This document shows, piece by piece, positions 1,503-15,326 of a DNA stretch of 16,203 bases. A program made the translations under genes and the position numbers. How positions within the stretch are numbered: the first letter of the stretch is position 1; each line of letters opens with the position of its first letter. Source of the stretch: Gemmatimonadota bacterium (GTDB lineage: Bacteria > Latescibacterota > UBA2968 > UBA8231). The notes beneath the pieces were generated by a model. That model saw only the letters and a program-made list of their open reading frames with translations. It did not search any database and was not told where the DNA came from. Location of the stretch: positions 1-16,203 of the forward strand of contig PATE01000046.1 in NCBI GenBank assembly GCA_002712305.1. Reading direction: 5' to 3'.

Positions 1503-1508
1503 GGGAGG
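1503..1508 (+). promoter_or_regulatory. Ribosome binding site GGGAGG deciding the NHL gene start
   Basis: GGGAGG lies 7 nt upstream of the ATG at 1516. It overlaps the alternative ATG at 1501, which itself has no ribosome site, so 1516 is preferred. Confidence 0.6.
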
Positions 1509-1515
1509 CATCAAG

Positions 1516-2538
1516 ATGGCTGAAGATAGCTCCTGGGAATACGCACTCGACCTGGAACGCGAGGCGAAGGCGAATACGGGGCCGGCGGTGCTGGGCGAAG
1601 GGAACTTTAAGTACGAGGTGTCGGGGAAGAACTGGGGAAATCTGCCGGAGGATTGGTATTACAAGGAAGCAACGTCTGTGGCGGTGAACTCGAAGGGGCA
1701 GGTGTACATCTTCAACCGGGGCACACATCCGATGTTGGTGCTGGGCCGCGAGGGTAACGTGGAGAGCTGGTGGGGCGATGGCGTGTTCGGCAACCCGCAC
1801 GGGGTGACGATCGGCCCGGATGACACGGTGTTCTGCGTTGACAATGGAGACAGCACGGTACGGAAGTTCACGGCAGATGGGAAGCTGCTGATGACATTAG
1901 GCACGCCAAACAGACCGTCGAGCAAAATGAGTGGGGAGCCGTTTTGCCTGCCGACACACGTGGCCATCGACAAGCGCAATGGGGATTTCTACGTGGCGGA
2001 CGGATACTCGAATGCCCGAGTGCACAAGTACGATCCGAACGGGAAGTACCTGTTCTCGTTTGGTGAGTCCGGTACGGGGGAGGGGCAGTTCAACATCGTC
2101 CACAACATCGACACGGACAGAAATGGCTACCTGTATGTGGCGGACCGGGAGAATCACCGCGTGCAGATCTTCAGTCCGGAGGGGAAATACGAGACGCAAT
2201 GGAACAACCTGTCGCGGGTTGCAGCTATCTATATCGACTCACGGGGGGGTGAGGAAACGGCGTATGTGGGGGAGTATTTCTGCGGTATCGGGTCGAATGA
2301 CATCGGCAGGGATCTGGGACCCAGGGTGACGATGATGAGTCTGGATGGGAAGGTGTTGGGGAGGGCGGGGCGGGAGTCGTACGGGGATGAGACAGGGAGG
2401 TTCTATTCACCGCACGGGCTGGCAGTGGACGCGCATGGGGATATCTATGTGGCGGAGGTGTCGTGGAGTGACTACGGGAGCCAGATGGAGCCGCCTCGGG
2501 AGCTGCGGTCGATGCAGAAGCTTGTGAAGGTACCCTAG
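1516..2538 (+). CDS. NHL-repeat beta-propeller, peptidyl-alpha-hydroxyglycine amidating lyase (PAL)-like
   Basis: Starting at ATG 1516 gives 340 residues with no signal peptide. It is built of NHL repeats ending in strands such as GDFYVADGYSNARV and YLYVADRENHRVQIF. Against animal PAL recalled from memory it keeps, in order (numbering from ATG 1516), R68 (FNRGTH), H95 (NPHGV), Y164 (DGYSN), H196 (IVHNI), R211 (ADRENHR) and H300 (SPHGL). These match the three zinc-binding His and the Tyr/Arg catalytic residues of PAL, which cleaves peptidyl-alpha-hydroxyglycine to an amide plus glyoxylate. Activity is inferred, and many bacterial NHL proteins have unknown roles. The Kelch gene follows after 37 nt, so the two are probably co-transcribed. 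Codon use is odd: near the 3' end 11 of 15 Gly codons are GGG, unlike the neighbour. Confidence 0.85.
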   Translation: MAEDSSWEYALDLEREAKANTGPAVLGEGNFKYEVSGKNWGNLPEDWYYKEATSVAVNSKGQVYIFNRGTHPMLVLGREGNVESWWGDGVFGNPHGVTIGPDDTVFCVDNGDSTVRKFTADGKLLMTLGTPNRPSSKMSGEPFCLPTHVAIDKRNGDFYVADGYSNARVHKYDPNGKYLFSFGESGTGEGQFNIVHNIDTDRNGYLYVADRENHRVQIFSPEGKYETQWNNLSRVAAIYIDSRGGEETAYVGEYFCGIGSNDIGRDLGPRVTMMSLDGKVLGRAGRESYGDETGRFYSPHGLAVDAHGDIYVAEVSWSDYGSQMEPPRELRSMQKLVKVP

Positions 2539-14522: not shown

Positions 14523-15326
14523 TCACGTTTCGCTGCCCTCAAGGTGCGTCCGTCCCGGACGGGACGGGTGGGCGTAGAGTGCTTTCTCCTCGGGGGTGGC
14601 GTCGGTGATCGGGCATTGCTCGTGAGGCGGCCCAAATGAGATGAAACCGGGCGAATACTTGAACAGCATCGAACGCCGTTCGCGATCCTTCGGTTGCCAG
14701 GGCAGAGTGCCATGGATCAGCGCTTCGTTGAAGAACACGACCGAACCGGCGCCGGCCACGACCTGATGCACGCAACCCCAATCCTGCTCGAGGCGAAGCA
14801 TCTCGACGGCCGGCCGGTAGTTGGCCTTGTGGCTCCCCGGAATGCAGGCGAAGCCCCCATCCCCGTCTTTCACGTCCGTCATCTGCCAGGCGGCGACACA
14901 CAATCCAGCGTGCACCTGGCCGTGAGCGAAGTGATGGAACTGGCTTGGATCGAAGGTCGTACCGCCATGCAGTCGGTGGCCCTCCGTGCCATGCCGCATG
15001 CGGATCAGCACGGGGCCATGGTCCAGACGAAAGCCCGGGCCCAGGACCTCGTTGAACACGTCGATCACCCGCGGATGGGCGAGCATACGACGGAAGGGGT
15101 CGCACCAGGGGCGGTCGAAGGTCAGCGGATTCTGCTGGAACTCGCCACGCCCCTCGTCGCCTCTCAACCCAACCGCATCCTCAGACAGACCGGGGTCGCG
15201 GTTGCCGATCAGGTCGGCGTGGTGTTCGACCGCCGCGTTAGCGGCAGCAACCTCGTCGGGGGACAGGACGTCTTCCAGGACGAGATAGCCGTTGAGGTCG
15301 AAGAGGAACTTCTCGCGCTGATTCAT
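14523..15326 (-). CDS. Phytanoyl-CoA dioxygenase (PhyH) family Fe(II)/2-oxoglutarate-type protein
   Basis: 267 residues from ATG 15326 with AGGTGA (15333-15338) 6 nt upstream. The N-terminal FDLNGYLVLEDVLSPDEV (9-26) is the standard PhyH opening. The core has GPVLIRM, H120-G121-G122 (RLHGG) where HxD is expected, then LCVAAWQMTDVKDGDGGFACIPGSHKANY (141-170), with the family's 'D....nG....PGSH' signature. The distal metal His is H205 (NEALIHGT), and R217/R218 (RERRSMLF) would bind 2-oxoglutarate. Such enzymes hydroxylate small molecules; the substrate is unknown. The Gly in place of the Asp ligand recalls 2OG halogenases, but may simply be a trait of this subfamily. It lies 69 nt after the partial URO-D gene and just before a URO-D relic. 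Confidence 0.88.
   Translation of the reverse strand: MNQREKFLFDLNGYLVLEDVLSPDEVAAANAAVEHHADLIGNRDPGLSEDAVGLRGDEGRGEFQQNPLTFDRPWCDPFRRMLAHPRVIDVFNEVLGPGFRLDHGPVLIRMRHGTEGHRLHGGTTFDPSQFHHFAHGQVHAGLCVAAWQMTDVKDGDGGFACIPGSHKANYRPAVEMLRLEQDWGCVHQVVAGAGSVVFFNEALIHGTLPWQPKDRERRSMLFKYSPGFISFGPPHEQCPITDATPEEKALYAHPSRPGRTHLEGSET

Follow-up and report, generated by a model that had tools for sequence, protein, structure and literature searches.

The window, the whole stretch of 16,203 nucleotides that was analysed, belongs to contig C67 of a 4.77 Mb genome and carries a gene for a six-bladed NHL propeller resembling animal peptide-amidating lyase (PAL; Table 1). The gene and a neighbouring one of the enolase superfamily point away from each other, and on its other side come Kelch and Gfo/Idh/MocA genes. 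The open reading frame has a second in-frame ATG at 1501 as an alternative start. We preferred ATG 1516, the start chosen in the initial annotation, because of the GGGAGG motif that lies at a spacing of 7 nt ahead of it. Reading the N-terminus, MAEDSSWEYALDLEREAK, by eye, we found no hydrophobic stretch and no secretory signal, and the protein is probably cytosolic. Elsewhere in the window, two open reading frames, of 202 and 476 aa, had no Pfam match at E 0.01.

Table 1. Features of the window and of related loci. Positions refer to the window unless a locus label precedes them.
Feature	Position	Strand	Remark
GGGAGG, likely ribosome-binding site	1503..1508	+	7 nt 5' of ATG 1516, read from sequence
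PAL-like six-bladed NHL propeller gene	1516..2538	+	340 aa plus stop
R68 codon	1717..1719	+	aligned with rat PAL R533
H95 codon	1798..1800	+	aligned with rat PAL H585 (metal ligand)
Y164 codon	2005..2007	+	aligned with rat PAL Y654 (catalytic dyad)
H196 codon	2101..2103	+	aligned with rat PAL H690 (metal ligand)
R211 codon	2146..2148	+	aligned with rat PAL R706 (catalytic dyad)
H300 codon	2413..2415	+	aligned with rat PAL H786 (metal ligand)
G301 codon	2416..2418	+	position of rat PAL D787 (Ca ligand)
Open reading frame, 202 aa	4597-5202	-	
Open reading frame, 476 aa	7658-9088	+	
PhyH (2-oxoglutarate dioxygenase) match	14523-15326	-	
FMO-like gene of Bradyrhizobium-type locus	L061:6130-7902	+	directly upstream of PAL-like gene
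TauD-type dioxygenase gene	L080:7140-8100	+	TGA stop overlaps ATG of PAL-like gene
PAL-like gene, Mesorhizobium plasmid	L125:9025-9945	+	
PAL-like gene, Mesorhizobium plasmid	L126:9004-9915	+	
Open reading frame with weak PF03712 match	L004:52-1785	+	up to 577 aa; contig C74 16570-19863
Redoxin-Cu2_monoox fusion	L132:85-1899	+	same-class relative

Translation of the open reading frame placed all the residues named in the initial annotation at the numbers given there. For residue matching, we added a rat PAL reference of 313 residues, checked against PDB entries 3fvz and 5wm0 and numbered from the latter, to the alignment of bacterial homologues. R68, H95, Y164, H196, R211 and H300 corresponded one to one, and in the same order, to six residues of the rat enzyme, so that the apparently complete PAL active site claimed at the outset was recovered in full. 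In rat PAL, the three histidines are the metal ligands, D787 is a Ca ligand and Arg533 is a further active-site residue. The structural Ca ligand of animal PAL is absent from the window protein, which has G301 at this position, as do 108 of 112 homologues (glycine); judged from the alignment, the Ca site is not conserved. H148 lies inside the context FCLPTHVAID, which the initial annotation quoted, though it did not list this histidine as catalytic; the column holds aspartate in rat PAL and is variable across the family. The tyrosine and Arg706 form the catalytic dyad of rat PAL, an R706A substitution removes 97% of its activity, and the non-peptide α-hydroxyhippurate binds its active site (PMC10303134). 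By these alignments, the window protein is a PAL-family protein.

All six catalytic columns were invariant in 42 aligned homologues, and the residues RHYHRH were read in 112 of 112 homologues, which span several phyla of bacteria, the predicted metal ligands H95, H196 and H300 being kept as strictly as Y164, R211 and R68. As these homologues were picked by similarity to the window protein, the counts show constraint within the family and not rarity. The source genome encodes three PAL-like proteins, the window protein included, and all of them have the six-residue set; four other NHL open reading frames of the genome, which are not PAL-like, lack it. These controls, together with the conservation in 112 of 112 homologues, rule out a chance match at generic NHL positions. 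Two more distant members from Mesorhizobium plasmids have aspartate at the R211 column, and both of these, as well as one Priestia protein, have aspartate at the Ca-ligand position.

We predicted the structure with AlphaFold2, using an input alignment of the window protein, related loci and loci from the genome search. The model is a six-bladed propeller (mean pLDDT 88.5, pTM 0.88), and its top Foldseek match is rat PAL 3fvz (E 1.1e-19). In the VIA comparison, the model matched 3fvz with a Z score of 34.9 over 280 residues at 2.4 Å and with about 25% identity. The NHL domain of Thin, which is non-enzymatic, scored level with it (Z 35.3), and the fold alone is therefore not diagnostic. According to the strand list of the model, blades 2, 4 and 6 carry H95, H196 and H300, respectively, at the second position of their innermost strands, and R68, Y164 and R211 come just after strand B in blades 1, 3 and 4. 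Since the start of strand A and the end of strand B lie on the same face, all six residues should gather where the channel opens on that side of the modelled propeller. The structure prediction proposed in the initial annotation has thus given a PAL-like fold and, by strand topology, three histidines on the same face and on alternate blades. Apart from the common propeller and the six residues, which share their order and sequence contexts, the window protein differs from rat PAL in its low identity, a shorter blade 1 loop and the presence of G301 in place of D787; it also has no fused or linked PHM monooxygenase and no visible secretory signal.

The family is widespread in bacteria and already named in the databases, where NCBI gives the homologues PAL-family names; the window protein is not a rare find. 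At least one PAL-like gene was present in 46 of 64 genomes of the phylum, and relatives in the genome collection came from Latescibacteria, Dehalococcoidia/Chloroflexi, Poribacteria, Entotheonella and many Alphaproteobacteria. One named bacterial homologue is full-length, 46% identical and has the same six residues, but its gene surroundings are unlike those of the window locus. The open-licence full texts searched held no experimental description of a bacterial PAL-like member. In the tree, the window protein grouped with Chloroflexota (Dehalococcoidia) sequences, and the three paralogues of its genome fell into three subfamilies. This grouping, with the paralogues elsewhere in the tree, suggests horizontal spread of PAL-like genes. 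Rat PAL stood on long branches, and its placement is uninformative.

Neighbouring genes, called at high-GC loci by a codon-usage score, pointed to catabolic settings of changing composition. An orthologue that is 86% identical (locus L034) has only the PAL-like gene in common with the window, which rejects a conserved operon here. Across the other bacteria there was no dominant partner, and most immediate neighbours differed from one another. The recurrent ones, listed as raw occurrences, were CoA-transferases, FMN-dependent dehydrogenases, luciferase-like monooxygenases, amidases and hydroxyacid dehydrogenases; amidases stood beside the PAL-like gene at two loci, and hydroxyacid or FMN-dependent dehydrogenases at several. 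In L080, the overlap of the stop codon of a TauD-type dioxygenase gene with the start of the PAL-like gene (Table 1) suggests translational coupling of the two. The divergent Mesorhizobium members, in which Asp replaces the catalytic Arg and also occupies the Ca position, are encoded between a 2-hydroxyacid dehydrogenase gene and an operon for taking up and degrading ectoine. At 32 loci, all but one labelled Bradyrhizobium, an FMO-like gene of the same orientation is found within 200 bp upstream of the PAL-like gene; equivalents of the L061 gene, directly upstream, were noted in 34 loci, nearly all Bradyrhizobium. As such a gene was seen at Bradyrhizobium-type loci only, we rejected FMO as the partner of the window gene. 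DUF2855 and AMP-ligase genes often occur further upstream at these FMO loci. The PhyH match in the window is likewise not supported as a partner, since the 4.77 Mb genome holds at least 150 such matches; hydroxylases are abundant, and none can be singled out.

We consider it probable, at roughly 0.6, that the window protein is a cytosolic metal-dependent hemiaminal lyase that acts after an oxygenase other than PHM. We counted in favour of this reading the residues kept in 112 of 112 homologues, 3fvz as the top structural match, the catabolic and oxygenase neighbours and the plain N-terminus, and against it the fold tie with Thin, the loss of the Ca ligand, the want of a conserved partner at the window locus and neighbours that are unlike one another. 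In the proposed reaction, H95, H196 and H300, contributed by alternate blades, would coordinate a single divalent metal ion, probably Zn, where the central channel opens. The carboxylate of the substrate would be bound by Y164, R211 and R68, which would also help to deprotonate its carbinol. The enzyme would split the N-C bond in R-CO-NH-CH(OH)-COO(-), a hemiaminal, or in a close analogue, to give R-CO-NH2 and glyoxylate or a similar oxo-acid. The hydroxyl group would be supplied by a non-PHM oxygenase, for example a 2-oxoglutarate dioxygenase or a flavin monooxygenase, and the two enzymes together would form a pathway of oxidative N-dealkylation that acts on small N-acylglycine-type compounds. 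The PAL step can proceed without an enzyme at or above neutral pH (PMC6529398), making a cytosolic lyase less necessary.

The MgdH/MgdL system is a bacterial example of a 2-oxoglutarate dioxygenase followed by a dedicated lyase (PMC12508155). MgdL, an N-(hydroxymethyl)guanidine lyase, cuts a hemiaminal made by such a dioxygenase, as is proposed for the window protein, but it is a beta-barrel that uses Asp/Arg acid-base catalysis; the same study reports no sequence homology between PAL and MgdL (PMC12508155), and we rejected homology to MgdL on that ground. If the bacterial PAL-like proteins are active, PAL chemistry would be common in bacteria without its textbook partner PHM, soluble bacterial enzymes would release primary amides and glyoxylate, and the animal amidating lyase would have a possible origin that can be tested. 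More tentatively, and with rather less confidence than we give to the lyase itself, PAL-like propellers may form a general bacterial class of hemiaminal lyases that serve varied oxygenases (2-oxoglutarate dioxygenases, FMOs, luciferase-like enzymes) in the oxidative N-dealkylation of small amides and similar compounds; animal PAL would then be a late specialist joined to the copper-dependent PHM.

The same metal site might instead serve a different reaction with a carbinolamide or a lactone as substrate, for example cleavage of ureidoglycolate, opine-type C-N cleavage or lactone hydrolysis; we regard this as unlikely. Ureidoglycolate lyase cleaves its substrate in the same manner, yielding urea and glyoxylate (PMC3793230), and the widely varying neighbour genes suggest varied substrates. 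The Pfam matches to the related six-bladed propellers SGL/gluconolactonase and virginiamycin B lyase (Vgb) also lean this way, but they are weak or under the cut-off; the catalytic residues match those of PAL, and we noticed no purine-degradation genes nearby.

Most NHL domains are binding platforms, and the window protein could be a non-enzymatic scaffold or sensor whose residues are kept for stability or for structural metal binding. The equal fit of the Thin NHL domain to the model and the loss of the arginine in the Mesorhizobium members agree with such a role. We nevertheless find it improbable, as six functionally linked residues spread along the protein are kept in 112 of 112 homologues, and the homologues sit in catabolic gene settings. 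NHL domains of TRIM and Thin share the repeat and fold of the window protein, but the stretches compared do not have the PAL histidines. The NHL repeat is also common to ScyF (NF035926), for which the window protein scored 106 bits against a cut-off of 350.

The initial annotation had seen no PHM partner, and a Pfam profile search of the source genome did place neither PHM domain above its cut-off. The statement needs amending, however, since a distant, exported-looking protein resembling the PHM superfamily is encoded on contig C74 and gave a weak PF03712 match below the cut-off (Table 1). It carries a cytochrome c motif as well as a lipoprotein-like signal, and its motifs HHFILYG, NAHYLN, SHAHEL and DEMMILFGLYY hold a His/His, a His, an HxH and a Met that are invariant in 13 aligned relatives; these probably correspond to the six copper ligands of PHM. 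Its best PDB matches were all PHM, though weak (E about 0.06), and the HxH and Met aligned with those of PHM. The interpretation first put forward stood as to the complete site, the PAL-like fold and the non-generic residues, and was qualified as to rarity, the replacement of D787 by G301 and the existence of a distant PHM-like protein.

Genuine peptide amidation would have this copper protein hydroxylate the Gly at the C-terminus of a peptide, and the window protein, with its complete PAL site, finish the reaction. It appears very improbable, because the C74 protein, unlike the PAL-like protein, looks exported, is unlinked to the latter (C74 versus C67), lies under the Pfam cut-off and is distributed differently among the relatives (27 of 64 genomes versus 46 of 64), and no precursor peptide gene was recognised. 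We therefore did not pair the C74 protein with the window protein and retain the hemiaminal lyase as the preferred reading. Separately, a protein of a same-class relative joins a redoxin domain to a Cu2_monoox N/C region (L132), possibly another architecture of bacterial copper monooxygenases.
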